Positions 23,652 through 44,500 are shown, numbered from the stretch's first letter. The stretch: 64,000 bases of DNA from Candidatus Zhuqueibacterota bacterium (GCA_030950365.1 JAUZRQ010000014.1:1-64000); one strand, 5' to 3'. A program made the numbers and translations. Notes: generated from the sequence alone by a model not told the origin.

Positions 23652-26600
23652 TCAGGACTTGAGTTTTTCGGTGAAAATCTCAATTTTGTGACGGATGTCG
23701 TCGCGCTGTGGATCAATCTCCAGCAGCTTTTGCCATTCCAGTAGCGCTTCTTCGTACTGTCCCTGTTTGGTATAAACAATGCCCATATTTTCATAGGCAA
23801 ACGTATCGGACGGGTCCAGCGTTTTGATATACTCGTACGTCTCGGCGGCTTTGTCGAAATCTCCGCGGCGGAAGTAGGCATTGGCCAGAATCCGGTACGC
23901 CTCTTTGTAATCCGGATATAAATCGATGATGCGCTTGAAGGCCACAATGGCTTCATCATATTGTTTCTTCTTATACAGCCGGAATCCTTCAATCAGCATC
24001 TGTTCTTTGGCATCCAACTGCGTCTCGTCATCCTGCTCAAAACCGAGCACGGCCTGCCGCAAGGTGGATGAGGACGCACCACCGGCTTCCACCCCTTCTC
24101 CTTCCTCGTCCGAGGTCAGGTGGCTGACCTGGAAGCCGTCCTTCTGCAACAATTCGTCAATATCGGCAATGGGCATGGCGGCCCGGGGCTCGGCATCTGT
24201 GGCCATTGCAGTTTCATCGGTGGCATCCTCGGCATGGGTGGCTTCGGTAATCAGCGAACTCGCCGAATCGGCGCCAAAAGCATCCACGATATCCTGTGCG
24301 CCGAACTCTTCATGCTCCTCCAACCCTTTAGCGCTCGCCGCGGACTCGTCTTTTTCGGGCTCCGGCGCCGCGTCTTCCTCAAGAATGGCATTAGACTCGC
24401 CAATCATATCCGCAAACGCGGTTTCCAGCTCGGTATGCTCCGGAGGCCCGCTCTCCTCTGCAGCATCGGCCGGACTGAGGTCGGCCGCTTCCGCTACTGG
24501 CTCCTCCCCGACCGGGGTTTCGGCAACATCGGACTGCGTCTCTTCCGTCACCGGCTGCGGTTCGGAAGTGACCGGCTGCGGTCGCTGTTCCGGTTCCGGC
24601 TCATGCCGTGCTTCGGCAGTCGCCGGCGTTTCTTCGGCTTCAGCCGCCGGCTTATCCGTGCGGATTTTGCCGGCATCCAAATCAAAGGTGATCGGCGCCG
24701 GTTTAGTGAGGTGCACATCCTGATCCAGAATCACGCGACCATCGAGCGTGAGCATGGGCGTGCCCGGTGGCTTAATGGGCCGGTTGGCCCGCCGCGCCCC
24801 GCGAGCCACAAACGCTTCACGCAACTGGCGCGTATTCAGCCGCAACCGCACCAGTTCCTCATAAATCTTGCTCTCACTGATTTGGGTGTAGCCGTATTTT
24901 TCGGTGTTCAGCTCGTCACTGATGCGTTTGGCGCCGTACTCCGGATGATTCTTGATGATGTCAAAAATCTTGGCCTTGTCTTCGATGGCAATATGCTTGG
25001 CTTCCACCGACACCGAGGGCTCGATCGCAAAATTATCGATGCCGACTTCTTCAAATTCGCGCTTGTATTTATTGTAATACACAAACGTGCTGATGCCCGC
25101 TGTTTCGCATGCCTGCCGGATGCTGGTCCCGGCCATGATCATGCGGTAGGCCTCGCAAGCGCGGCGGAATTCTTCTTTCTGCGCCGTGGTTTTCTCGCGG
25201 ATCACCACAAAGGTGATATCATCGGACTGTGGGCATTCTTCGGTGAACGCCAGAATTTCATTGCGCAGCGCCTCCACGAACGGCTGCGCCCGCAGGTGTC
25301 CGAGCTGCCGGATGGCCTGCAACAACCGCTCCTCGCCGAAAATCTGCCGCCGGCTGTTCATCGCCTCGGTGATGCCATCGGTGTACAGCAGCAGCAAATC
25401 ATCCTCGGCGAGCTGCAAGGTGTCGCTCTCGATGGACTTGCGGAACAGATCGGGCTCGGTGAGCTGAATGCCGATGGGGAAGCCGCGCGGATTCAGATAA
25501 TAGGTTTTTTGCGTGGAAGCGCGGTACAAAATCATGGGATTGTGACCGGCGCTGGCGTAATTGAGGCGGCGGCGTTTGCTGTCGATGATCACATAAAACA
25601 TGGTGACGAACATGCCCTTTTTCATGTCGCCGAGAATGAGCTCGTTGAGGCGGGCCAGCACCTCGGCCGCATCCTTAACGCCGCGCGCTTCGGTGCGCAA
25701 CGCCTGCCGGATCATGGTCATCACCATGCTGCCCGGAACGCCCTTGCCAGACACGTCCGCCACCACGATGCCGAGGGTGTCGCGGTCCACTTCGACGAAA
25801 TCGTAATAATCGCCGCCGATGAGCTGAGCGGCTTCATAATGACCGGCGATCTCGTAGCCCTCGATGTCCGGAAACTCATGCGGCAGCAGGGTCTGCTGAA
25901 TTTCCTGCGCCACCTGCATTTCCTTTTGCAGCCGCTCCTGCTCGGCCAGGTTTTTCTGCGATTCCCGGAATTTGCTGGTGATTTCGGTAAACGCTTTGGC
26001 GATCTCGCCGACTTCTGTGGACGGATCGATATCGATCTCGTCCTCGATTTCGCCACTGCCGGCGCTGCGCACCCATTCGGCCAACTTGCGCAGCGGATTA
26101 AGAATGAGGTAAATCAGTAAAAACAGTCCCGCCGAACTGGTGAGCATTGCCAGGATGGCCAGCCGGGTGTATTCCCAGCGCCGCGCCGCAATCATCTCAT
26201 CGATGTAACTCTTGTAAATACGCAGGTGTAGTTCGCCAATGGGGCGCTCGCTATCGCGCAGGCGGATATCCACTTTGTAATCGTAAATTTGCGTGGTCAG
26301 ACCGGTTTCTTCTATCAAAAGATCATAGTAAGTCAGGTTATGCATATCCGGTTCTTCATATACCGTGCGCGGCATTTCGTATTGCGAGAACGTCTTTTCC
26401 CATACGCTGTGGCCGATGATCAGCCCGGCGGTATCCAGCACGGCGATTTCATACAGCTCCGACGACCGGTCGGTGATGTACGAGTTCAGCAGCACATGAA
26501 GGCTGGCCTGACTGGTTCCGGTAAGGTCCTGAAAAATCTGCGGCTGATCCACCACATTGCGGATGATTTGCGAAGCGATGGTGTCCCAGGCATCGAGTTT

Positions 26601-27194
26601 TTGCTGCAGCACCTGTTTGCGCACTGGCAGGACCAGATAAAGATAAGCGACTAAAATGGCGGCGGAAATCATCAACGAGGTCCGCGCCCAGAAACGAATC
26701 TTGAGCCCGAACGGCACCGAGCGCAGCGGTTTCGGGATCAGCGACAGCCAGCGCTTTTCCTCCTGCACCGACCGTTTTTTGGTAAGCCGCAGCTCGTTGC
26801 CTTCCTCGGTTTTGCGATAGTCGATTTCATCCATCAATCGACGCATGATGAAGATGCCCAATCCCCCTTTCTTTCCTATGGCCACATAACGGTTCAAATC
26901 CGGTTCGGTCACGCGGGTGGGGTCAAAGTATTTCCCCTGATCGATGAGCGAAAAGGTAACGCTGGTTTTGCGCACCACCGCGCGCAGCGTGATGTATCCC
27001 TGCTGCTTGGTGCCACGGTAAGCGTGCCGGATGATGTTAGTGGCGGCTTCGTCAATGGCCAGTTTGAAATTTTTAACCAGCTTTTCGGACAGGTGATATT
27101 TGCGACCGATTTTGGTCACAAATTCGCGCAAGTCCGCCAGGTAATCGATATGCGCAGGAACGCGTAACTGCTCTTTGTCTACCTTATAAATCAC
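23652..27194 (-). CDS. Multidomain SpoIIE phosphatase: HATPase, two TM, HAMP, PP2C, transposase-like HTH, acidic linker, TPR
   Basis: 1180 residues. 1-140: RsbW-type anti-sigma kinase/HATPase (DEAATNIIRHAY 48-59, DQGK 85-88, GKKGGLGIFIMRRL 107-120). TM helices near 171-190 and 345-365 enclose a ~150-residue extracytoplasmic sensor. HAMP 365-418 and a short coiled coil. 440-668: SpoIIE PP2C phosphatase with metal residues in GGDYYDF, VADVSGKG, YTDGITEA and SDDIT. 672-715 is a helix-turn-helix like those of resolvase/transposase proteins (TSIRQACETAGIS), and 735-800 resembles the winged IS3-type HTH (HPEYGAKRISDEL). 830-1060 is acidic and disordered; 1064-1175 is three TPRs. It should set a partner-switch (STAS/anti-sigma) module in response to an outside signal. 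It starts 24 bases after the PorV-TPR gene, so the two form an operon. Confidence 0.88.
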   Translation of the reverse strand: MIYKVDKEQLRVPAHIDYLADLREFVTKIGRKYHLSEKLVKNFKLAIDEAATNIIRHAYRGTKQQGYITLRAVVRKTSVTFSLIDQGKYFDPTRVTEPDLNRYVAIGKKGGLGIFIMRRLMDEIDYRKTEEGNELRLTKKRSVQEEKRWLSLIPKPLRSVPFGLKIRFWARTSLMISAAILVAYLYLVLPVRKQVLQQKLDAWDTIASQIIRNVVDQPQIFQDLTGTSQASLHVLLNSYITDRSSELYEIAVLDTAGLIIGHSVWEKTFSQYEMPRTVYEEPDMHNLTYYDLLIEETGLTTQIYDYKVDIRLRDSERPIGELHLRIYKSYIDEMIAARRWEYTRLAILAMLTSSAGLFLLIYLILNPLRKLAEWVRSAGSGEIEDEIDIDPSTEVGEIAKAFTEITSKFRESQKNLAEQERLQKEMQVAQEIQQTLLPHEFPDIEGYEIAGHYEAAQLIGGDYYDFVEVDRDTLGIVVADVSGKGVPGSMVMTMIRQALRTEARGVKDAAEVLARLNELILGDMKKGMFVTMFYVIIDSKRRRLNYASAGHNPMILYRASTQKTYYLNPRGFPIGIQLTEPDLFRKSIESDTLQLAEDDLLLLYTDGITEAMNSRRQIFGEERLLQAIRQLGHLRAQPFVEALRNEILAFTEECPQSDDITFVVIREKTTAQKEEFRRACEAYRMIMAGTSIRQACETAGISTFVYYNKYKREFEEVGIDNFAIEPSVSVEAKHIAIEDKAKIFDIIKNHPEYGAKRISDELNTEKYGYTQISESKIYEELVRLRLNTRQLREAFVARGARRANRPIKPPGTPMLTLDGRVILDQDVHLTKPAPITFDLDAGKIRTDKPAAEAEETPATAEARHEPEPEQRPQPVTSEPQPVTEETQSDVAETPVGEEPVAEAADLSPADAAEESGPPEHTELETAFADMIGESNAILEEDAAPEPEKDESAASAKGLEEHEEFGAQDIVDAFGADSASSLITEATHAEDATDETAMATDAEPRAAMPIADIDELLQKDGFQVSHLTSDEEGEGVEAGGASSSTLRQAVLGFEQDDETQLDAKEQMLIEGFRLYKKKQYDEAIVAFKRIIDLYPDYKEAYRILANAYFRRGDFDKAAETYEYIKTLDPSDTFAYENMGIVYTKQGQYEEALLEWQKLLEIDPQRDDIRHKIEIFTEKLKS

Positions 27195-27218: not shown

Positions 27219-29162
27219 TCATCGCCGCTGCAGCCGTTCGCGTGCCAGATCAATCGCGTCGAGAATACGTTTATTATAACGTTGTTGTTTTTGCAATTCA
27301 AGCAAGATTTGTAGAGCGGTTTCATAGTTTTCCTGCTGTATGTAACGCACCGCTTCCAGGAAACGGCGGCGAATGGTTTCCGAGGCAAAATCTTCCACCC
27401 GGGCGTTGGCGCGCGCTTCCGCGTCGTCCAGATACTGCTTCACCTTCGGATCGTCGGGCCGGATTTTCAGCGCCTCTTTGAAGCTCTTCATGGCTTCCCG
27501 ATAATTCTTGCTGATGTAATCCGTCAGGCCCTTGCGGAACAGGTCGTTGAAGGTCAACTGGCGGCGCAACTGTGCAATGCGCGCTTCAATGCGCTTGCGC
27601 TCGGCCTCATCCTCGCCGTAGCTCTGTTTTAGAATGCGGTCATACAAATCCAGCGCCACCGTGATGCGGTTTTGCTTTTCGGCCTGCCGCGCCCTCGCCA
27701 GCAGCTCGCGGTTGATCTGGCGGATTTCCGTCATGGTTTTGGCGATCCATTCCTTCAGCAACTGGTTTTCAGGATCGCGCTCGAGACCGCGCTGCCATTC
27801 GGCGATAGCCTCGCGGTACTGTTTGGTTTCGAGGTTGCGCATGCCCTTTTCAAACTGTACCTTGATAAATTCCTGCAGACTCTCGCGCTCGGCAGCCAGA
27901 CGCTCGCGTTCGGCCACCATTTGCAGCTCTTTCTGGCGTTCCTCGGCGATCTTCTGCTCGGCCCGCTTCATCCACTGGTTGGCCTCGGCGTTTTCGGGAA
28001 ACAGGTCGCGGGCGGCGGAGAATTTCAGCAACGCCGGGAAGTACTCACCCTGATTGAAATACGCCTTGCCACGGGTGAGCAGGTTTTCGAATTCTATCTG
28101 CCGCTGCCAGGCCAGCTTGCGCGCGGTTTCTTCTTCGATGCGCTTCAGCTCTTCCTGCTGCGCCAGCTCGATGAGCTGGGTTTTGCTCTTGCCGAATTCC
28201 ACTGTCAGGCTCAACCGGTGCTGCGGGCCGAAATCGCTGGCCGCATCGGAATAGCGGCCAAAGGCGTAATCGAGGCGGTAATTTTGATACAGCACACCGG
28301 CGCCAAAATTCAATGACTGCCCGTTGTAGCCCACACGCAGGAAGGCCCGGTTTTGAAAAATGTACTCGGTGCCGAAATTGAGCCGGGTCGGCTCGTCGCG
28401 GGCAATCAATGCGCCCAGCAAAATATTGATGCCGTCCGCGCCTTCGCCCTTGAAACCGATGGGTTTGGCGAGCCCCATCCGGAAGCGCCAGGGCTGCACC
28501 TCCTGCTCCGAAACCAGTTTTAGCCGCGGGGCGACGGCATTTTGCAGATTAAACCCAATGGTTAAATTTTGCAGCAACGATACTTCAAAATCCGGGTGGT
28601 ACAGAAGACCGATATCCAGCCCGACGCCAGTGGCGTTGTTCTCCAGCAATTGCAGCCGCTCGATTTTCAGGGTCGCGCCGACGGTGATCGGCAGCGGCAA
28701 TTGTTTGGCGTAGGAGAGCAAGAACTGGCTGCGATTGGCACTGCCCTTGCCCAGCTTTACGCCGTCCGGGCTGGTATTGAGCACATCGCCCACAGACAGA
28801 TTTATGATGCCAAAGCCCAGGGTGCCGGTTTGCACCGTGGGATGCGCATAGCCGATGAAGCTGTAGCCGGCGCCTTCCAGCAGACGGGTGTGGAACACCA
28901 CCAGGTTTTTGCGCTGCAGATGGTCCAGCGCGGCGGCGTTCCAGTAAATGGCGGTGGCATCGCTGGCGTAGGCCACGAAGGCATTACCCAGTCCGATGGC
29001 CCGCGCGCCCACGCCGAGCTTGAACACCGGCTGCATGCCGGCCGTTTGCCCAAACGCCAGCGCCGGCAGGCCAAGCAACAATCCGGCCAGCCAGAGCCGC
29101 CAGCTCTGAGGCCTGCGCTGTTTGTCCGCCGGCTGCGCGGATGTTCGTTGCACGAGTCTCAT
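27219..29162 (-). CDS. PorV/PorQ-like outer-membrane barrel fused to C-terminal TPR/coiled-coil region
   Basis: About 647 residues. A signal peptide (ending LALAFGQ-like, near 30) leads into a PorV/PorQ/UPF0164-type barrel: LGVGARAIGLGNAFVAYASD followed by IYWNAAAL is the family signature, and strands continue to about 330. The second half is charged and helical with TPR-like repeats (GKAYFNQGEYFPALLKFSAA, GMRNLETKQYREAIAEWQRG, GLTDYISKNYREAMKSFKEA). PorV is the shuttle/attachment protein of type IX secretion; here the barrel has its own periplasmic or cytosol-facing TPR scaffold. The start is uncertain (ATG at 29162 or 29189). It precedes the SpoIIE gene by 24 bases and follows the giant surface protein gene, which hints at a shared role. 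Confidence 0.8.
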   Translation of the reverse strand: MRLVQRTSAQPADKQRRPQSWRLWLAGLLLGLPALAFGQTAGMQPVFKLGVGARAIGLGNAFVAYASDATAIYWNAAALDHLQRKNLVVFHTRLLEGAGYSFIGYAHPTVQTGTLGFGIINLSVGDVLNTSPDGVKLGKGSANRSQFLLSYAKQLPLPITVGATLKIERLQLLENNATGVGLDIGLLYHPDFEVSLLQNLTIGFNLQNAVAPRLKLVSEQEVQPWRFRMGLAKPIGFKGEGADGINILLGALIARDEPTRLNFGTEYIFQNRAFLRVGYNGQSLNFGAGVLYQNYRLDYAFGRYSDAASDFGPQHRLSLTVEFGKSKTQLIELAQQEELKRIEEETARKLAWQRQIEFENLLTRGKAYFNQGEYFPALLKFSAARDLFPENAEANQWMKRAEQKIAEERQKELQMVAERERLAAERESLQEFIKVQFEKGMRNLETKQYREAIAEWQRGLERDPENQLLKEWIAKTMTEIRQINRELLARARQAEKQNRITVALDLYDRILKQSYGEDEAERKRIEARIAQLRRQLTFNDLFRKGLTDYISKNYREAMKSFKEALKIRPDDPKVKQYLDDAEARANARVEDFASETIRRRFLEAVRYIQQENYETALQILLELQKQQRYNKRILDAIDLARERLQRR

Positions 29163-29280
29163 GGTATCGTCGCCCTGATATGGTTGCACTCGCAGAATCC
29201 TGTCTTACCTGCGTGTTGTGTCCAAATATGGGATATTATTTAGCCGCACCCGCAATTTCGAGATTTACCTTGTCATTCCG

Positions 29281-29578: not shown

Positions 29579-32500
29579 CTACTTTGCCACGGCCACTTTG
29601 GTGGTGACCACACCGAAATCCGTCTTCAGCACGGCGATGTAAATGCCATTGAGAACCACTTTGCCTTCGCCGTTGCGGCCGTCCCAGAAGATGTCGTTGT
29701 AACCCGGGATGCGGCTGCCTTTCTGACCCTGCGGCGAATTCGCCTCGTACGTCTTCTGATACACCAGCTCACCTAGTAGCGTCAAAATCTTGAATTCCAC
29801 CCGCGAGTTGCTCGGGAGGTAGTACCAGAAACGGGTGCCGCGGTCCGGCGGATCGCCCGGCTGGAACGGATTGGGATAGTTGTAGAAATTCTTGAAATCG
29901 GCTTCGGTAATGACCGAGGCTTTGGATGCCACCGCAAACTCCTGTCCGGAGGCGCCGCTTTCATCCACCACCTGCACCGGCTCGCCAGAATCCAGGTCGA
30001 TCACGTCAATGTCGGCGCTGGAGGCAAAGCGGAGCTGCATGCCGGTTACATCGGATTGACCGGCCAGATCCACCAGCACATCCAGCGTATCGGGCACGCC
30101 CGGCAGCAGGGTATCGCCCGGCGTCAGTTGCACCTGCACCGGATTCTCCGCCGGGATTTGCATTCGTTCGCCGAACATCATTTCCGGCTGGCCGTGCCGC
30201 ACCACCCGGATCGCCTGGATCACCCGGTTCGGCGCCACCGGCTCGCCCTGCAAATCAAACACCAACAGGGTGAGCCCGCGCAGCAACATGGCGCTGGAAA
30301 GTTCGCGGCCCTGATTCTCAAAAATCAAACTCATCATCGGCACATCTTGCTCGCCGGTGCCGGTGGGGCCGGAAGGTCGCGCCTGGTTTTTGCTCACCCG
30401 CAACAGCCGCGGCTCGGTTTGAATGGAAATCTCCACTTCACCCACCACCACATCGGCATCCAGGCCGGAGTTGCCGTCCTTGGGCAGTTTCTCCAGCACC
30501 AGCCGGATCTGCTCGATGCCGGTCGAGGGCACGTTCTTCGCTTTGACCCGCCAGGTGGCCACGCCGTTTTCGGTGCGCTTGACGAGCGTATCCTCGGTGC
30601 TGTATCCGACCGGCAGCACAATGCGCACCTCGGATTCTCCCACCACCGGCGCCTGACCTTCGTTCAGCACCATGGCGGTGATTTCAAACGGCTGATTGAC
30701 GCTCACAATGCCATCGGTGGCGGTGACCGGACGGGTGATGGCCCCGGACAGCCGCAACGACGCCCGCTCGACCACCTCCACCTGCAGCGGTTCGGAAACG
30801 GTTTCAAAGGTCAGCGAGTCGTTATTGGCATCGATGGCCTGCACGCGGATGGTCAGCAACTGCGCCGCGGCCGCATCCTCCGGCGCGCGCACGATCCAGC
30901 TCGGCGTGGCGCGCGTATCCGAATCGGCGAAATTGCGGCGGGCTTCTTCGGTAAAAAAGCCCGTGGGCAGTTCCAGCACCGCGGACACCTGCCGCAGATG
31001 CCGCCATTCCAGATTGGCCTGCACCGTGAACGGCTGGCCGGTGCTCAAAATGTTGTCCAGCGCGCCGTCCGGCCCGGTGATCACCGGCGCCGACACGGTC
31101 AGGCTGCCCACAGTATCGGTGCGCACGAAGAAGCGGGAAATTTCGGAAACCACATCCACATCCTGACCGGAGTTTTCATCCAACGGCCGCTGGATGAGCC
31201 GCACGGTAATGGCGCCCTCGGCCGGCGATTCCGGCGCCCGCGCCTGCCATTCCACAAAGCCATTGACGTCGATCGGTTTCTCGAGCGTGTCGGTCACCGT
31301 AATGCCGGTCTGCCCCAGCTCCAGCCGCACCCTGGCCGTGTCGATGGTGCCGGCGGTGCCCAGATTGTTCAAGTTCGCCCGGATGGTAAAACGCTGCCCC
31401 ACGGTCAGCGAGTTGTCGCGCGCGCCCTCCGGCTCGCTGATAAACGCCTGCAATTCCAGCAGGGCCCGGCTCACCAGCACCACACGCAGGCTGTCCGTCG
31501 AGCGCACGCGTTCGCTGGTGCCGGTGGTGCCCTCGGCCTCGAATCGGAACCAGCGCGGTCCGTGCGGCTGCGATGGCGCGATCAGAGCCCAGGTTTCTTC
31601 GTTGCTGAAGTCCTGAATAACCGCAGGAGACAGCAGGGTGTATCCCGGCGGCGGAATCAGCCGGATGCTGCGCGGCCGGCCGGCCAGGTCTTCACTGAAG
31701 GCAATGCGCGCACGCATCTTGAAATTCTGCCCGGTGGACAGGGTATCGTCCTGCGCGCCGTCCGGCTCGCTGATGAACACGCGCGTGATGGACAGATCGA
31801 ACTGCACCACTTTGACCGCCAGCCGCACCGAATCGATTTCGGTCAGCGCCAGTTTGCCGCTGTTTCTGTCGAGCGGCAACTGGCTGAATTTGATCACAAA
31901 CAGCGCCTGCGGCACCTCGGTGGCCGGCGCTTTCACTTTCCACACCACCGGCTCATCGATGCGGAACAGTTGCACGAAAGTGGCCGGGGACTGCAACTGG
32001 AAACTCGGCGGCATCACGAGCTGCAGCCGGCCGCGCATGTCGATTTCCGCCTGACCGAGGTTCTGCACCGTGGCGCGTACTTCAAAAATCTGGTTGGTAC
32101 TCAGGATTTGATCCTCATCATCCAGCCGCGCCACCATGGTGAGTCGGGCAGGCAACTGGATGCGCACTTGCGCGATGGAATCGGCAGCCAAAAACACCGC
32201 GGCCGGTTCTTTACTCTGCGCCGCGATGGCCCGCAAAATCCGCGCGGTGAACGTTTCGTTGAACCCGTCCGGCGTCGGCAGCGAATCGGCCTGTACCTGG
32301 AACACAGCCTGCGCCACACTCCGCGCCTGGATGCTGGCGATGTTCACCGTATCAATCGGGATGAGCGACCGGCCGCCGGTGCGGAGCTGCACCTGCACAT
32401 TTTCGACATCTTCGAAACCGGTGTTTTCCACCAGCACGCGCACGTTGAAGGTCCGCGACACGTTCACTAGGCCGATCTCGGTGCCGGGCACCCGGTTGAG

Positions 32501-35500
32501 CACCAGCGGCTCGGTTTTGAAAATCCGCACCGCCGCGGTGGTTTCAACGGTCACCGAGCCCGCATTGCTGGTGGTGATTTCTTGCAGTGAGTTTTGATCC
32601 ACGCCGTGCACTTGCGCCAGCAGCGTGGCCCGGCCGCCCAGTCGTCCGGTGACCACCACCCGGAACTTGAGCGTATCTACCGCGCCGCCAGGCAGGGTCC
32701 AGTCCGGATGGATGGTCAGGCCTGTCGGCGGCTCGATCACGTAATCGCGCTGCACCACCCCATCAAGGCTGATCTGGATATCCTCTTTCACCGGCGGCTT
32801 GAGGGTCACGGCCGCGACGCCGCTATTGCGCACCACCACCCAAATTTCCCACGGAATGTTCTGTTCGGCAGCCACCTGTGGAACGGATGGCAGCACCTCA
32901 GTAATGTCCAGCACCGCGGGCAGTTGCACAGCCACGGTGGCCGTGTCATCGACCGCCGGATCCACCGGCGCGGTCAAGCCGGTGTTGTGCGCAATGGCCG
33001 AGGTGATGGCCGCCCGGAAGACTTCGGCCGGATTTTCCTGATTGCCGGCGGTCACCGTGAACAGCACGCTATCCACCTGGCCGCCCTCGAGGCCGCTGGC
33101 CATCAGGTATTCGGACTGGCTGATGATCGAGTTGCCCGAGGTGCTCAGGCTCACGCGCACGCTGTCGGCTTTTTCCTGGCCAAAGTTCTCCACCACCGCC
33201 AGCACTGTGAACGGCTGGCTGATGTTGACATACGGCGGATTGGGAATATGGAACACATCCACCTGCCGCACCCGCAATCGCGCTGGCGTTTCCACGCGCA
33301 CCGTATCCAGGCCACCGTCGGCGGTGTCATCGGTCAGGGCGCGGCCGCTGTTGATCTCCACCCCGGCCACGAAACCGCTGATCACGTTGTCGCCAATGGT
33401 GTTGCCGGTTTTGGTCACAATGTAGCGCAGCGTGGCCGAACCGTTGCCCGGCAGCACGGAATCGCCGTTCACGAAAGCGGTAGGCAGGGTCAGGGTGTAG
33501 TCGTCACTTTGCATGAGGCTGAACAGGAGCCCGGTCTGGCCGGGACGGAAATCGATCTGCACTGCGCTTTCGCCCGGGTTGGCCACGGTCATGTCCACGG
33601 TCCACGGCTGCGTCTGACCGCGCGTCACCCGCGGCTGCGAGGCTTCGATGGATACGATCTGCAACAACGCCGGCTGCTGTACCACAAAACTGCCGCCCCC
33701 GGAATCGGTCTGGATGAAAATCGGCTCCTGGGTGGATACATCGTGCACCCACAACCGGCCCTGAATGGTGGTGGCGCCGAGTTTGACGCCGGTCTTTAGT
33801 ACATCGAACCGCAGCGAATCGATCTGCCCGGCGGCCAGGGTCGTGCTGCCCGATCCCAGAAACGCCGTCGGTTTGACGATGGTGTATTCCTGCGTCACCG
33901 CGCCGCCGTTAAACAGCGCCACATTCACGCTATCCAGCTCGATGTTGGTGCCACCATTGTTGGCCACGACCATGGAGATGAACCAGGGCCTGGCCATCTG
34001 GCTGGTCACAGTGGGCTGGCTGGGCCGCAGCGAAACCACTTGCACGCTGGCTGGCGCGCTGACCTGCAGTTCGTTCGAATCTACCAGGAAACTGCGCGCG
34101 AAGCCGTTGCCGTTTTCCGTACCGCGCAGCTCGATGGACGGCGTGTACGCGCCGTGCTGCATGTTGGCCGGAATCGGCCGCTGCTGGAAAGTCAGGGTGG
34201 TGTCGCCCGGAGCAATCACCGTCACTTTGTTGGCATCCAGCGGCGCCGTGAAGGTGTTGTTGCCATCGGTAAACGTGAACGTGGTGATGGCCGGCTCCAG
34301 CTCGACGGTGGATTGCCCGGCATTGTTGACACGAACTTTAAAAGCGTAAAATCCATTATTATTCACCACATCTGGCACCATGCTACCGGAAATGTAGGTA
34401 ATGAGCGGCGGCGACTGCACTTCCACCAGCGGATTGCTGGTCACATTCAGGGTCAGCGTCGTATCGCTGTTGGTCTCGACCACGGAAACCTGCACCAGAA
34501 ACCGCAGGAATCCGGTGGCGGCGCCGGTTTTGGTAACCGCGAATTTCAAACTATCGACCTGATTGCCGGCCAGAATGGAAGTGCCGCTGGCCAGCCAGCG
34601 CGGCGGCTGCAGCTCGGATTGATAATCGCTTTGCACCTGCGTGCCGAGGCGGAACCGTACCGTGGTGGTCGTATCGGTCTGCAACTGTACCTGGCTTTCG
34701 CCGGTATTGGACACCACCACCGTGATGGTCCACGGATTGGTCTGCCCGGCCGTCACCGTGGTGCGTGAAGGCAGCACATCCACAATTTGCAACTGCGCCG
34801 GACTTTGCACCTGCACCGAGCTGGCACCCTGATTGGACACCACCGCCCGGCCGCTGTTGATCTCAATGCCGCTCAGAGTCATGAGAATCGGCTGTGTGCC
34901 GGTACTGGTGCCGGCCTGATCCACCGTCACCACGATCTGCTTGGTCTCGTTGGCATCGATGATGGAATCGCCATCGGCGAAGAGAGTGGGCAGAATGTAC
35001 TGATAGCCGGCATTATCGCCCACGGAAAACGTGACCGGATTGGCGGCCAATTGTATCGCGCTGCCGCCCGGATTGCGCACCGTGGCTGTGACGGTCCAGT
35101 CGCGAGTGCGGCCGGCAGTGACCGTGGTTTGCGAAGGCTGCAACAAATCGATATTCAGCAAGCCTGGCGACTGCACCACCACTTCGCCGGTGCCAGAATC
35201 GTTAGTATTGTCGCTCACTTCCTGCCCGGTGGCCAGATCCACGCCCCGCGCCACGCCGCTAATGGTGACGATGCCGGTGGATTGGCCGGTTTTGGTGACC
35301 CGGAAGGTCAGGTGACCGGTGGAATTGGCCGCGAGAATGACACCGCCCTCATCCATCGCCGTCGGTGGCACAATGGTGTACTGAGCCGTCACATCGGTGC
35401 TGCCCAGCCGGAGCTGCAGCGCCGTTCGGCCGGTGGTCAAATCCAGCTCGATGGCCGAACTGCCGCTGTTGCGCACCTGCATCACGATCTGCCATTCTTT

Positions 35501-38500
35501 GAGCATGCCCTGCGTTACCTGCGGCTGCGATGACGTGATAGAAACGATGGAGAAGGCATTGCCTTCTACCACGGTCCACTGGTGCGGCGTATCGGCACCG
35601 GTGTCCTGCGTTTGCTGATTGGAGTTGGCGTCGCGGGCATAAATGATGGCATCGATGGTAGTGAGGCCGAGCGTCGCGGCAATGCCCACGTTCACCGTGA
35701 AGGTCAAATCGACAAAGCCGTTGCCGGGCACGACGGTGGGATTGCCCTGATTAGCGGCCACCACATAATCGCCGCTGACATCCACCGGGCCCTGTTTGAA
35801 CACCAGCCGCACGCTGTCAATCAGCGCATCGGCCACCTGGCCGGCGCCGAGCCGGTTGGCCACGCGCACGGATACAGTCAAATTCGTCTGGCCCTGCGAT
35901 ACCGTGTCTGCGGTGCCGGTCACGGTTTGGATGCTCACCTGCGCCGGCCGCTGTACAGTCCAGGAATCCGGCGTTTGCGCGCCGGTGGCGCTCACCGGCG
36001 TGCCGTTGACCTGGCCGGAAACCGTGCCATCAATGGTTACCGTTTCCAGCGAAGCCGCCGCCGACACATCCACGAGATAGGTCAGTGTCACCGTGGCATT
36101 GCCTGGCAGGGTGGTGGGATTGGACGCGCTAGCCGTCACGGTGTATTCGGCGGTGCGATCGGCCGTGCCGGTGAAACTCAAATTGCCCAGCAAATTGCCG
36201 ATCGGGCTGGAGCCCAGATTTTGCACCGACATACTCACGGTGATGCCGGTCTGCCCCTGCGTCACCGTGGTCGGGGCTGTGGTAATGGCAAGAATAGACA
36301 GACTGCCCAGGGTGATCTGCGTCTGGCCGCTGGCGGCCAGCCCGCTGCTGACGTTGATGGTCACCACGCCGCCGGTGGTTCCAGCGCGGTAGGTCAAATT
36401 GAGCTGGCTCGCCGCGTTGGTGGCGATCTGATGGCCGGGCGTGATCGCATCGGCATCCGGGGTGACGATCGTCCCGAGATTGGCCGGGGTCGCGCTAACC
36501 GTGAACAGGCGGCCGCTGCCCACCGGATTGTTTTCAGCGTCCTGAATCACCGAACTGGTGATGACCGAGGTGGCCGTACCATTGGCCGGCAGGGTCGCCG
36601 GATCGGGCGTCAGGGTGACGTCGCCCACCGGTGCCCCAGGCAGCACGGTAATCACGCCCGTGGTATCTTTGATGGTGGCATCGAAACTGGCGATGATAGT
36701 ACCGTTCACCGAGCCGTCGGCGGCAGCGGAAATGGGCGAAAACGTGAACGACGACCCGGTGCCCGAGGCCGCCGGCGTCAAATTACCGGTGCTCGACCAG
36801 GTGACGTTCACATCGCCGAAGTAGTTGTCGCCGGCGTCATATCCGGCTGCATACAGGGTGATCTCTTCATCAGCGGTCAGGGTATAATCGCCGAACGGCA
36901 CGCCGCCATTGCCGGGCGCGGTGCGGATGATGATTTTGGCCACACTGCCGGTGCTTACGGTGATGGTCCCGGAGCTGGCATCGAGAACATCGCCGCTGGC
37001 ATCGGCGCGGATGGTGCCCGTGCCCACGGTTTGCGCGGTGAAAGTGGCCGAAATGCCTGAAGCAGGCGAAATGCTGCCGATCGGGCCAACCACGGACCAG
37101 TTCACCACTACATCAGAAATGTAGTTGTTGTCGGCATCAAAACCACCGGCGTGCACCAGCAAAGTCTGGCCTGGATTCATGGTGGTCGGGCCGAGCGGAC
37201 TGGTCTCGCCCGAACCGCCAGTCAGCACCTCCACGTGGTGCAATTTGCCCGGCGTGACGCTGATGGTGCCGGTTTCATCGCTGCCAGCGGTGGCATGCGT
37301 CGCCCGGATGGTGCCGCTCGCCGGCGCGGTGTTGGGCTCAAACGTGGTCCGGGTGCCGGTGCCGGTGATCGCCGGGGCGAGTGTGCCGGTGCTGCTCCAG
37401 TCCACACTCTGCTCGCCCACATAGTTGCTGTCGGCGTCGAACCCGGCGGCGTGCAGCGTCAGGGTCTGGTCGGTGGTGAGCGAGCGGTCTAACAGCTCCG
37501 GGCCATCGCCGGCCGGCCCTTCGATGATTTTGATGTACGCCAGCGCGCCCGGATTGATGGTCAAAATACCGCTCTGTCCGTCGATGGCTGTGGCGTGATC
37601 GGCGGTAATCTGGCCGTTGCCCACGCGCTGCGGATCGAAGGTCGTGAAGACGCCAGCGCTCGGGCTCACCACGCCAATCCCGCCGGAAACGCCCCAGTTC
37701 ACCGACACATCACCGATGTAGTTGTCATCCACATCGAAGCCGCCCGCGTGCACCACCAGGGTTTCGTCGGTGGTGAGGGTTTGCGCGCCCACCTCCGGCG
37801 CTTCGCCCGAACTCCCCACCAGCACCTTCACGCGGTACAGGCTCCCCGTGTTCACGGTGAGCAGGCCGGTGGAATCGTCCTGCGCCGTGGCGTGGTCGGC
37901 CAGAATGCGGCCGGTGCCCGGCGTGGTCAGCGTCAGAGTGGTCGAGGTGCCGATCACGGGATCGACCGTGCCGATGCCGCCGCTCACCGACCAGGTCACC
38001 GATTGATCGCCTAGATAATTGCCCTGGGCATCGTAGCCCGCGGCGTGCACTACCAGCACATCATCGGTGGTCAGGGTTCTCGCGCCCAGTTCCGGGCCAT
38101 CACCGGACGGCCCTTCCACGATTTTGACGTAACTCAACGCCCCGGCGGTGACGGTAATGGTGCCGGTGGCGTCATCGATCAGCGTGGCATGATCGGCAGT
38201 AATCACGGCAGAACCCGCCGTGCTGGCCGTGAACAGCGTCGAAACGCCGGTGGTCGGATTCAGGGTGCCGATCGCCTGGCTGATCAGCCAGTTCACCGAC
38301 ACATCCGCGACATAATTGTTGTCCGCATCGAAGCTCGCCGCGTGCATGCGCAGGGTGTCGCCGGTGACCAGATTGGCGTTGCCCACTTCGCCGGTCAGAC
38401 CGGAGGCACCAGACAGAATTTTGACATAGCGCTCGGTGCCCACGGCCACGTTGATGGTGCCGGTTTCGTCGCCGGTCGCCGTGGCGTGCGTGGCCACGAT

Positions 38501-41500
38501 GGTACCGCTGGCCGGAGCTGTGGTTGGACTGAACGTGATGCTGGTGCCGCTGGCGTTGATCACCGGCGCCAGGGTGCCGGTGCTGCTCCAGGTCACGGTC
38601 TGGTCGCCGAGATAATTGCCCTGGGCATCATAACCGGCGGCGTGCAGGGTCAGCACGTCGTCCGCCGTCATGTTGCGGCTGCCAAACTCGGCGCCGTCGC
38701 CCGAGGGGCCTTCCACAATTTTAATGTAGGCCAGAGTGCCCGAATTCACCGTGATGGTGCCGGTGGCGTCGTCGATCAGCGTGGCGTGATCGGCGGTGAT
38801 CTGGCCGGTGCCGGGCGAGGTGGCGGTCAGGGTGGTGGACACGCCCTGCAGCGGGTTCAGGGTGCCGATGCCGCCGCTCACGCTCCAGTTTACCGACACA
38901 TCCTGAATGTAATTGTCATCCGCGTCGAAGCTGGCCGCGTGCACCACGAGCTGGTCACCGGTGGTCAGGCCGGTGGTGCCGACTTCCGGGGTGTTGCCGG
39001 CAGCGTCCGACAATACTTTGACGTGATGCTCGACGCCGACCGCCACCTGAATCAGGCCGGTGGAATCGCTGCCGGCGGTGGCGTGCGTGGCATGGATGCG
39101 TCCGCTGGCCGGAGCCGTGGTCGGATTGAACGTGATGCTGGTGCCGCTGCCGGAAATGACCGGCGCCAGCGTGCCCGTGCTGCTCCATGTAACGGTTTGA
39201 TCACCGAGATAATTGTCCTGGGCATCGTAGCCCGCGGCATGCACGGTCAGCGCGTCATCCGCGGTCAGATTCTTAGCGTCCAGTTCCGGGCCGTCGCCCG
39301 AGGGGCCTTCCACAATTTTAATGTAAGCCAGATTGCCGGCATTCACGGTGATCGTGCCGGTGGCATCGTCGATCAGGCTGGCATGCGAAGCGGTAATCTG
39401 GCCGGAGCCCGGGGTGGTGGCCGTGAGTGTGGTGGACACGCCCTGCAGCGGATTCAGCGTGCCGATCCCGCCGCTCACGCTCCAGCTCACCGAAACGTCT
39501 TCGATATAATTTTCATCCGCATCGAAACTGGCGGCATGCAACGTGAGCTGATCACCGGTGGTCAGACCGGCGGTGACGACTTCATTGCTGTTGCCCGCGG
39601 CATCGCTCAGCACTTTCAAATGGTGCGCCTGGCCCACACTTACGCTGATAGTACCGGTCTGATCGCCGGTGGCCGTGGCGTGGCTGGCGGTGATGGTGCC
39701 GCTGGCTGGGGCGGTGGTCGGGCTGAAGGTAAACGACGTACCGGTGGTGTTGGCCGCCGGGGCCAGGGTGCCGATGGTTTGCCAGGTCACTGTCACGTCG
39801 CCGAGATAGTTGCCCTGAGCGTCGTACCCGGCGGCATGCACGATGAGCACATCGTCTGCGGTGAGCGATTTCGCGCCCAGCTCCGGCCCGTCGCCCGACG
39901 GCCCTTCGACGATTTTCACGTAACTCAAACTGCCGGAATTAACGGTAATCGTGCCGGTGGCGTCATCGATCAGCGTGGCATGATCGGCGGTGATCTGACC
40001 GGTGCCGGGCGATGTGGCCGTGAGGGTGGTGGAAATGCCCTGCAGCGGATTCAGCGTACCAATGCCACCACTGACGCTCCAGCTCACCGAAACGTCCTGA
40101 ATGTAGTTGTCATCGGCATCAAAGCTGGCCGCATGCACGATGAGCTGATCGCCGGTGGTGAGATTGGCCGTGTTCATTTCCGGTGTGTTGCCGCTGGCGT
40201 CGGTCAGCACCTTCACGTGGTGCTCGGCGCCCACGCTCACTGAAATCGTGCCGGTTTCGTCGCCTGTGGCCGTGGCATGCGAAATGCGAAGCGTGCCGCT
40301 GGCCGGTGCCGTGGTTGGACTAAACGAAATGAAAATGGCGGTTTCATTGACGGCCGGCGCCAGGGTGCCGGTGCTGGTCCAGTCCACGGTAACATCGCCG
40401 AGGTAGTTGCCCTGGGCATCGTATCCGGCGGCGTGCACGATGAGCACGTCGTCCGCGGTGAGCGATTTCGCGCCCAGTTCTGGCCCATCACCGGACGGCC
40501 CTTCCACGATTTTCACGTAACTCAAACTGCCCGAATTGACGGTAATCGTGCCGGTGGCGTCGTCAAACAACGTGGCATGGTCGGCGGTGATCTGACCGGT
40601 GCCCGGGGTCGTGGCCGTCAGGGTGGTGGAGATGCCCTGCGTCGGTGACAGGGTCCCGATGCTGCCGCTCACCGTCCAGTTCACCGACACATCCTGAATG
40701 TAATTGTCGTCGGCGTCGAAGCTGGCCGCATGCACCACGAACGTCTCACCGGTGGTCAGGCCCACGTTGCCGACCTCGGTGGTGTTGCCGGACACTCCGT
40801 TGAGCACCTTCACGTGGTGCTCCGCACCCACCGATACGGAGATGGTGCCGGTCTCATCGCCCTGGGCGGAGGCATGGGTCGCCACAATGGTGCCGCTGGC
40901 CGGAGCCGCTTTCGGGCTGAACGTCAGCGAGGTGCCGGTGGAATTGATCGCCGGTTCGAGATTGCCGGTGCTGCTCCAAGTCACGGTCTGGTCGCCAATG
41001 TAATTGCCCTGCGCGTCGTATCCCGCCGCATGCACGGTGAGCACGTCATCCGCGGTCAAATTTTTCGTATTCAGTTCCGGGCCGTCACCGCTGGGCCCTT
41101 CGACGATTTTCACAAACGCCAGGGTGCCGGAATTCACGGTGATCGTGCCGGTGGCATCGTCAATCAGGGTGGCGTGATCCGCCGTGATCTGGCCGGTGCC
41201 CGGCGCGGTGGCCGTTAACGTGGTGGAAATGCCGGTGGCGGCGCTCAGCGTGCCAATGCCACCGCTCACGCTCCAGTTCACCGACACATCGCCGATGTAG
41301 TTATCATCCGCGTCAAAACTGCCGGCGTGCACGGTGAGCTGATCGCCGGTAGTGAGACCGGCCGCCTGTACCTCGTTGGTTTCGCCGCTGGCGCCGGAAA
41401 GCACCTTCACGCGGTGCGCCTGCCCGACGGACACGCTGATGATGCCGGTGGTATCACCAGTAGCGGAAGCATGGCTGGCAATGATCAGTCCGGACGCCGG

Positions 41501-44500
41501 CGCTTTGTCCGGACTGAAGGTAATGCTCGGGCCGCTGCCCACCACCGTTGGGCTGAGCGTGCCGGTGCTGCTCCAGGTCACGGTCTGATCGCCGAGATAG
41601 TTGCCCTGCGCATCATAACCGGCGGCATGCAAAATCAGCACATCGTCTGTCGTCAAACTCCGGGCCCCCAGCTCGGTACCGTCGCCCTCCGGGCCCTCGA
41701 TGATTTTGATGTAGGCCAGATCGCCGAGCCCCACCGTGATGGTTCCAGTGGCATCGTCCAGCAAAGTGGCATGGTCGGCCGTGATCTGGCCGGTGCCGGC
41801 CGTGGTGGCCGTGAAGGTAGTGCTGATGCCGGTGCCCGGGAACAGGCTTCCGATGCCGCCGCTGACACTCCAGTTTACGCTCACGTCATCGATGTAGTTG
41901 TCGTCGGCATCGAAACTCGACGCATGCACGGTGATGGCATCGCCAGTGGTGAGGCCGATGGCGCCCACTTCGGTGGTACTGCCGGCGGCACCGCTCATCA
42001 CTTTCACGTGGTGTGGCGCGCCCACGGTGACGGAGATGGTACCGGTTTCATCACCGGTGGCCGTGGCGTGCACCGCCTGAATGGTGCCGCTGGCCGGGGC
42101 CAGGGTGGGACTGAACGTCACGGACGTTGATGTGCCGCTCACCGAAGGCGTCAGGTTGCCGGTACTGGACCAGGTTACGGCCACATCACCGATGTAGTTG
42201 CCCGAGGCGTCGTAGCCGGCCGCGTGCACCACCAGTTGCTCATCGGCGGTGAGGCTGCGCGCGCCCAGTTCCGGGCCATCGCCGCTGGGCCCTTCGACGA
42301 TTTTCACAAACGCCAGGCTACCCTCATTCACGGTGATGGTGCCGGTGGCGTCGTCAATCAGCGTGGCGTGATCGGCGGTAATCTGGCCGGTGCCCGGAGT
42401 GGTTGCCGTGAGCGTGGTGGACACGCCCTGCAACGGATTCAGCGTGCCGATGCCGCCGCTGACGTCCCAGTCCACCGACACATCCTGAATGTAATTGCCA
42501 TCGGCATCGAAACTCGATGCGTGCACGGTGATGGCATCGCCGGTGGTCATGGTGGCGGTGCCCATTTCCGACGTATTGCCGCCGGCGCCGGTCATCACTT
42601 TCACGAGATATTCGGCACCGGGATTAACGGTAATCGTGCCGGTGGCATCCCCGCCGGCGGTGGCGTGCGTGGCCACGATGGTACCACTGGCCGGGGCCGT
42701 GGTCGGGCTGAATGTGATGGAAACGGAGGTTCCGCTCACGGCCGGGGCCAGGGTTCCCGTGCTGCTCCAATCAACGGACACGTCGCCGATGTAGTTGCCC
42801 GCGGCGTCGAATCCGGCAGCGTGCACGGTGAGAATCTCATCGGCGGTCATGGTGCGGTTGGCCAGCTCCGGCCCATCGCCGAACGGACCCTCGATAATGC
42901 GAATGGAGGCGATGGAGCCGACGCTCACGGTTATGGTGCCAGTGGCGTCGTCCAATAGCGTGGCGTGATCGGCGGTGATCTGCCCGGTGCCCGGGGTGGT
43001 GGCGGTCAGGGTGGTGGAAATGCCGGTGGCCGCGCTCAGCGTGCCAATGCCACCGCTCACGCTCCAGTTCACCGACACATCCTGAATGTAGTTGTCGTCG
43101 GCATCAAAACTGGCGGCATGCACGGTCAATTGTTGATTGGTGGTGAGGCCGGCGGTTTGCACTTCGCTGGTTTCGCCGCTAACGCCGTTTAAAATTTTCA
43201 CGTGGTGCGCGGTGCCCTGGGTGACCGAGATCGTGCCGGTGGTGTCGTCGGTCGCTGTGGCATGGTCGGCAATGATAGACCCGCTGGCCGGGGCCGTCGT
43301 GGGCCGAAAGGTCGCGCTCGTTCCTGTCCCGCTGACGGTCGGCGCCAGGGTGCCGGTGCTGCTCCACGTTACGCTCACATCGCCGAGATAATTGCCGGCG
43401 GCATCGTAGCCGGCCGCGTGCACCTGCAGCACGTCATCGGCGGTGAGACTACGCGCCCCCAGTTCGGGGCCATCTCCCTCCGGGCCTTCCACAATTTTCA
43501 CATACGCCAGCGCCCCGGCATTCACCGTAATAATGCCGGTGGCGTCATCGATGAGCGTGGCGTGGTCGGCGGTGATCTGGCCGGTGCCCACGGTGATTGC
43601 GGTCAGGGTGGTGCTGGTGCCCTGGGTCGGGCTCAGCGTACCGATGCCGCCGCTCACGCTCCAGTTCACCGACACATCGCCAATGTAATTGTCGTCGGCG
43701 TCAAAACTGGCCGCATGCACGATGAGCTGTTCGTTGGCAGAGAGGCCGGCCGTAGTCACTTCGGCCGTGTTGCCGGCCGCGTCGGTCAGCACTTTCACGT
43801 GATGCGCCGCGCCGACGGTGACCGTGAGCAGGCCGGTGGTGCCATCCTGCGCCGTCGGATGCACCGCCGTAATGGTGCCCGAACCAATGGTGTTGGCGAA
43901 AAACGTGGTCGTGGCCGTGTTGGTGGCATTACTGAAACTGCCGATGCCGCCGGTCACCTGCCAGTCCGCCGCTTCATCGGCGATGTAATTTTCCCAGGCA
44001 TCGTAGCCGGCCGCATGCAAATTCAGCGACTGGTCGGTGGTAATGGATTGCGCGGGCAAGTTATCGCCCGGGCCGCTGGTACCTTCCACCACGTGCAAAT
44101 GGTGCAGCGGTCCCGGATTGATGGTAAAGGTGTTGGAATTGCTGCTGATGCCGCTGCCGGTAGCGGTCAAAAACACGCCGCTTTGCGCTTTGGTGATCGT
44201 CGCATCGGTAATCGTCTGGCTGGTTTGATTGCTGAATACCAGATTGGAGGCTGTCAGGGTGCCGGTGTTGTCGCTCAGGGTCACCGTGCCGGTATGCGAC
44301 ACGTCGTTTTCATACGCGTCGCGCGCCGTCACCGTGACCGAGAACGCCTGCCCGGCGGTTTGATTGGCGATGGTATTAAACACAAAGTGATCCAGCGACG
44401 CCGCCGTGATGGCAAACGCCGCCGAGGTCGTGGGACCGTCGATGGTGGTGCCCGCGCCGGTGCGGGTTTCCACCTGCACGGTGTAGCTGCCGGCGGTGGT

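Follow-up and report, generated by a model that had tools for sequence, protein, structure and literature searches.

A predicted membrane-bound kinase/phosphatase with a transposase-type helix-turn-helix pair and its candidate STAS-HTH partners in Calditrichota/KSB1

The analysed DNA is a stretch of 64,000 nucleotides from a Candidatus Zhuqueibacterota bacterium (GCA_030950365.1 JAUZRQ010000014.1:1-64000), called the window below. One of its genes probably encodes the membrane-bound bifunctional receptor of a partner-switching system whose substrates are STAS proteins that share a helix-turn-helix (HTH) domain with the receptor. The N-terminal RsbW-type ATPase would phosphorylate the serine in the SSAG motif of the STAS proteins, and the SpoIIE/PP2C domain would dephosphorylate the same serine. 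The balance between kinase and phosphatase would be set by a periplasmic sensor through a HAMP domain and a helical coil. The proposed substrates are two STAS-HTH proteins, one whose gene directly follows that of the receptor in nearly all relatives, another encoded at the start of an exopolysaccharide (EPS) export cluster, and the transposase-type HTH pair would be an old built-in module common to receptor and substrates.

Domain architecture of the receptor

The features of the locus are as follows.

23652..27194, minus strand: whole receptor gene (HATPase-TM-sensor-TM-HAMP-PP2C-HTH1-HTH2-acidic linker-TPR), 1180 aa, GTG start, from the ORF call and orthologues
26775..27179, minus strand: RsbW-type HATPase/serine kinase domain, residues 6-140, with intact N-box E49/N53/H57 and G boxes
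26631..26711, minus strand: TM helix 1, residues 162-188, from the AlphaFold helix and hydrophobic sequence
26169..26630, minus strand: predicted periplasmic sensor, residues 189-342, conservation 0.30, the lowest among the folded parts (AlphaFold, alignment)
26094..26168, minus strand: TM helix 2, residues about 343-367 (AlphaFold)
25884..26120, minus strand: HAMP (359-403) and helical coil (404-437) running into the phosphatase (Pfam, AlphaFold, alignment)
25194..25874, minus strand: SpoIIE/PP2C phosphatase domain, residues 441-667 (Pfam, alignment)
25044..25184, minus strand: HTH1, residues 671-717, resembling the first HTH of IS3/IS481 transposases (family models, AlphaFold, profile comparison)
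24792..24986, minus strand: HTH2, residues 737-801, HTH_21-like and common to the STAS-HTH partner (family models, AlphaFold, profile comparison)
24738..24791, minus strand: conserved basic tail with a K-P-P-G-T-P motif, residues 802-819; K808, G811 and P813 in 65/65
24015..24719, minus strand: acidic linker, poorly conserved, residues 826-1060 (composition, alignment)
23685..24002, minus strand: three TPRs, residues 1065-1170 (Pfam, alignment)
27219..29189, minus strand: PorV/PorQ-family protein with TPRs, the adjoining upstream gene after a 24 bp gap (NF033709, 131.6 bits against a cut-off of 90)
29579..44893, minus strand: likely giant surface protein (5104 aa) that has CARDB-like repeats and ends in a tail of T9SS type, the tail scoring just under the family cut-off

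A sequence-only reading of this DNA had placed an RsbW-like HATPase, a PP2C phosphatase, an outside sensor, HAMP, two HTHs, an acidic linker and TPRs on one chain. This description was borne out by an intact ORF of 1180 aa, by Pfam and by AlphaFold. Pfam assigned HATPase_c_2 (PF13581) to residues 13-139 (E 5e-29), HAMP to 359-403 (E 1e-6), SpoIIE (PF07228) to 471-666 (E 7e-53) and TPRs to 1070-1170, and the RsbW model matched the receptor at 2e-19. The AlphaFold model of the whole receptor (pLDDT 74) placed TM helices at about 162-188 and within 343-377, with an alpha/beta sensor between them. The linker contains 62 D/E against 11 K/R over 235 residues. No curated model names the whole architecture, and all full-length names scored far below their cut-offs. 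An ORF on the opposite strand (24120-26120, 666 aa) was rejected as antisense to a conserved gene and without support.

The catalytic residues, which had been singled out for checking, were compared in 65 full-length homologues. Residues E49/N53/H57, D85/G87 and G110-G113 of the HATPase and the aspartates of PP2C were kept in 62-65 of the 65, and the metal-binding aspartates D462, D480, D606, D658 and D659 were invariant (65/65). The HATPase_c_2 domain with intact N and G boxes assigns the N-terminus, on sequence, to the RsbW/HPK type, and the SpoIIE domain with its metal-binding aspartates belongs to the SpoIIE/PP2C (PPM) phosphatases. With N/G-box residues of the kinase and aspartates of PP2C that are essentially invariant, both domains should be enzymatically active. 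Mean conservation was 0.74, 0.76 and 0.82 for HATPase, HAMP plus coil and PP2C, respectively, and 0.61, 0.77, 0.76, 0.24 and 0.56 for HTH1, HTH2, tail, linker and TPR, respectively. The sensor is the variable part, as expected in a receptor. Judged from the alignment, the receptor HTH is not decoration.

Identity and age of the HTH pair

Structure prediction of residues 670-800 had been proposed as a check on the HTH pair. AlphaFold gave HTH helices within 671-801, at 671-687, 692-699 and 703-717 for HTH1 and at 737-749, 755-762, 774-783 and 789-801 for HTH2. These form two helical bundles with HTH spacing and agree with the family matches and the profile comparison. The resemblance to the start of IS3-type transposases, also suggested earlier, was confirmed. 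Single-sequence Pfam HTH scores of the receptor were below the cut-offs; the IS3 and IS481 transposase models matched the single receptor sequence at 6e-8 and 3e-7, respectively. Among 12 homologous HTH segments, the IS481 model matched 12, IS3 10, HTH_32 11, HTH_21 11 and HTH_28 9. When the HTH profile was compared by hhalign with IS481-type transposases from the relatives' own genomes, the match reached a probability of 92.5% (E 5e-7) and was colinear across both HTHs, with reversed controls at or below 1%. Chance similarity was rejected on the IS481/IS3 family matches and on hhalign with its reversed controls. A PDB sequence search with the HTH profile returned nothing meaningful.

The likeness to IS481/IS3 transposases thus covers two HTHs in the same order, and it ends there. 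The family cut-offs were not reached (32 bits against 160 and 30 bits against 224), as only the N-terminal HTH stretch matches, and Pfam found no rve/DDE catalytic domain in the receptor. Unlike in transposases, the HTH is fused to a signalling protein and is vertically conserved. By its sequence, the receptor is not a transposase.

All 40 relatives sampled matched the receptor, 39 of them with long homologues and one (G031) with part matches only, so that the search for the same domain order elsewhere was answered within the host phylum and also in a second one. The HTH profile was found in 77 of the 82 genomes of the phylum, including all 49 of high quality; the match in G031 is a STAS-HTH protein, leaving 76 receptor genomes. 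Named records among the homologues are candidate division KSB1 and Calditrichaeota MAGs. Outside the phylum, an FCPU426 MAG (L050) and 19 other genomes of its phylum matched, most with a receptor-sized ORF. In the genomes searched, the HTH occurs all across the host phylum (Calditrichota/KSB1) and extends to part of the FCPU426-type phylum. Genomes of family f7 (L096, G024:C248, G028:C39 and G034:C32) encode receptor paralogues of 1860-1990 aa that retain HATPase and PP2C. In these paralogues, the HTH region is altered and the C-terminus extends much further.

The earlier idea of a captured transposase segment stands in part. Relatedness to IS481/IS3 N-termini was upheld and an ancient capture is likely; a recent or peculiar event was not upheld. 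A recent, functionless capture by this one gene would account for the similarity to IS3/IS481 N-termini. It is nevertheless highly improbable, since the HTH sits at the same position across the whole phylum, is as conserved as the catalytic domains and also occurs in a second phylum; the phylum-wide conservation of the segment refutes recent or neutral capture. On these comparisons, the tandem HTH is an integral domain of ancient origin, and it is related to the N-termini of IS481/IS3 transposases.

Candidate STAS-HTH partner proteins

A separate ORF, about 225-265 aa in length, was likewise matched by the second half of the HTH profile. Its product is a STAS protein matching TIGR00377 (anti-sigma factor antagonist family) at E 9e-18, with PF01740 in 13 of 13. 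In it, a variable linker connects the STAS domain, whose SSAG motif is invariant, to an HTH at the C-terminus. STAS-HTH proteins were present in 82/82 genomes of the phylum, usually two per genome. In 68 of the 76 receptor genomes, a STAS-HTH gene lies downstream of the receptor gene, on the same strand and within 320 bp; these loci were chosen for both genes sharing one contig. The remaining eight comprise six at contig ends, one ambiguous case and G067 with broken frames. At the last locus (L186), the receptor and STAS frames are split into several ORFs, which are pseudogenes or long-read indel errors.

The STAS-HTH model matched receptor HTH2 (iE 1e-11 to 1e-13) and, in reverse, the HTH model matched the STAS C-termini (up to 4e-11). 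Comparison of the STAS HTH with receptor HTH2 by hhalign gave 98.5% (E 2e-15) against 1% or less for reversed controls, and a sigma region-4 control reached 33% against the STAS HTH, which is generic HTH likeness. At the level of sequence, the homology of STAS HTH and receptor HTH2 is firm in both directions.

A near-consensus housekeeping-type promoter (TTGAC[AT]TT-N12-16-TATATT) was found for the operon STAS gene in 39 of 69 cases (shuffle maximum 0), about 70 nt upstream of the gene in many operons. A promoter of its own would allow more substrate than receptor. No operator-like palindrome was conserved beside the STAS genes, where the motifs recovered were promoters. In the second phylum, the gene order is PorV, receptor-HTH, and STAS or STAS-HTH: the HTH-bearing receptor stands beside an HTH-less STAS in L050, L258, L259 and L262 (FCPU426-type), and a STAS-HTH is present in L256, L257, L260, L261 and L265. 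With a genetically linked candidate STAS substrate that has a putatively phosphorylatable serine at 68 loci, the operon has the testable features of a partner switch. As for the kinase, the HATPase may instead sequester some other partner rather than phosphorylate the STAS protein.

The genome of the window (G000) encodes two receptors that are 57% identical. The complete operon belongs to the other copy (G000:C77, L093), and the copy in the window is followed by an M1 peptidase gene in place of STAS. The same two-copy state was found in G001, the sole other genome of the genus, and the second STAS-HTH gene of the window's genome lies at G000:C82 (L083). The window copy is a paralogue at the level of the genus and has no STAS gene of its own beside it; it would therefore have to act on STAS-HTH proteins encoded elsewhere in the genome.

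Possible roles of the shared HTH

Net charge per approximately 59 aa was -0.1, +6.1 and +9.2 for receptor HTH2, the operon STAS HTH and the EPS STAS HTH, respectively. On this difference, the STAS proteins are the more plausible DNA binders, and docking is the more plausible role of the HTH in the receptor. The STAS HTH, which is basic and aromatic, is most likely the output domain and would bind DNA; the neutral receptor HTH2 would pair with it, so holding or selecting the substrate. As for the direct connection between envelope sensing and DNA that the sequence-only reading had put forward, the STAS partner is a more probable route to DNA, if there is one, than the receptor.

ToxR- and CadC-type membrane regulators bind chromosomal DNA directly, and the receptor HTH pair could itself do the same, with PP2C/kinase activity tuned by the binding or tuning it. 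The pair is of the transposase DNA-binding type, HTH1 is slightly basic (+1.6), a conserved basic tail follows HTH2, and the HTH is kept where the adjacent STAS has none. The best structural neighbours of the HTH model in Foldseek form a weak, non-significant list rich in bipartite DNA-binding domains (MuA, TnsB, Pax5/6 and PadR). We consider direct binding by the receptor unlikely, as HTH2 is neutral and has invariant acidic residues in its third helix (SESKIYEELVR), unlike the STAS HTHs, and no Foldseek match fell below E 0.4. That the adjacent STAS protein has this HTH too also favours a role internal to the system.

It is rather unlikely that the HTH serves purely for protein-protein contact or dimerisation, with DNA binding lost in both receptor and STAS proteins, acting as a homotypic adaptor through which the substrate reaches the enzyme. 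The strong positive charge of the STAS HTHs (+6 to +9) speaks against it, as do the receptors that keep the HTH although the adjacent STAS has none. Consistent with such an adaptor, homologous domains are found on the enzyme and on the protein encoded next door, and every match of the receptor-HTH profile in G000 with E <=1e-5 is a protein of this system. In helix 3, in addition, W/F/L residues occupy variable positions of the STAS HTH, and the receptor helix shows very high conservation. Within the partner-switching reading that we prefer, the HTH-less adjacent STAS in part of the second phylum means that the receptor HTH must have some role besides HTH-HTH docking.

Neighbouring genes and the exopolysaccharide link

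The second STAS-HTH gene heads an exopolysaccharide-export cluster in 20 of 20 sampled genomes, and in all 20 it is directly followed by a Poly_export/SLBB gene and a Wzc-like tyrosine kinase gene. A sigma-54-like site (TGGCA/TTTGC) precedes 16 of 20 of these EPS STAS-HTH genes (L083, L192-L210; shuffle maximum 2), and 11 of the 13 genomes searched for RpoN encode it. Longer STAS-x-HTH proteins of 537 and 762 aa are encoded at L268:1923-3536 and L269:1023-3311, respectively; their STAS domain is N-terminal, the same HTH lies far off at the C-terminus, and sugar-epimerase and Wzz-like genes are nearby.

In both phyla, the PorV/PorQ gene is conserved as the upstream neighbour of the receptor gene. 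At L090/L187 (G040:C19:1-5361), PorV/TPR protein and receptor form one chain, encoded by a single ORF of about 1784 aa; this is either a natural fusion, which would tie PorV and receptor functionally, or a sequencing or assembly artefact. The gene of the 5104-aa protein, which has highly similar repeats in its N-terminal half and is likely surface cargo, is probably in the same operon or block as the receptor gene. SprA, a core protein of T9SS, is encoded in 13 of 13 genomes searched. The PorV gene and the giant T9SS-type cargo upstream suggest that the signal would be the state of the envelope or of secretion; the output would be surface polysaccharide.

Comparison with known systems

The opposing kinase and phosphatase activities predicted for one chain, which the sequence-only reading had pointed out, are indeed both represented in the receptor, and the combination has precedents in SypE and Rv1364c. 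In Vibrio fischeri, the kinase/phosphatase SypE acts on the STAS protein SypA, which controls an EPS locus (PMC3610818, PMC4517449). SypE likewise joins, in one chain, an RsbW/HPK-like serine kinase at the N-terminus to a PP2C at the C-terminus (PMC3610818, PMC4517449), but it has a central receiver domain, and its described architecture has no membrane sensor, HAMP, HTH or TPR. The kinase-REC-PP2C order was not found in the receptor, which has no receiver domain and has TM-sensor-TM-HAMP instead. SypA is a single STAS domain, whereas the system described here has an HTH on both partners and a receptor gene linked to that of PorV. By analogy, the receptor may work like SypE, but we do not file it as SypE.

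Rv1364c of Mycobacterium tuberculosis combines PP2C and an RsbW-type kinase in one partner-switch polypeptide (PMC9138534), and PDB 3ke6 was recovered as a sequence match. It differs in its PAS-PP2C-kinase-STAS order, with STAS on the same chain and neither TM segments nor HTH. In the scheme described for RsbU, an N-terminal regulatory region feeds the PPM phosphatase via a helical linker, and the scheme has been extended to HAMP-linked members (PMC12143880). RsbU/RsbP/SpoIIE-type PPM phosphatases have the same catalytic domain and helical-linker input as the receptor, in which HAMP and coil would control PP2C by such linker dimerisation. The receptor differs from them by an additional N-terminal kinase before the membrane segments and a C-terminal HTH-linker-TPR part. 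Among open-licence PMC papers, none was found describing STAS-HTH or PP2C-HTH receptors, or such a system in Calditrichota/KSB1, pointing to an undescribed bacterial signalling system.

Significance

A one-step membrane-to-DNA pathway parallel to two-component systems can be put forward tentatively, with odds somewhat against it. In this pathway, a kinase/phosphatase would act on a DNA-binding STAS-HTH protein with HTH docking, coupling the T9SS/PorV state of the envelope to EPS output across the phylum. The partner-switching STAS proteins known so far are anti-anti-sigma factors or, as SypA, proteins with targets still to be named. A phylum-wide HTH shared by a STAS substrate and a membrane kinase/phosphatase offers a testable candidate site of STAS action, namely DNA. 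With one STAS-HTH copy heading an EPS-export cluster and the other beside PorV, the system is a possible regulator of surface polysaccharide in Calditrichota/KSB1.
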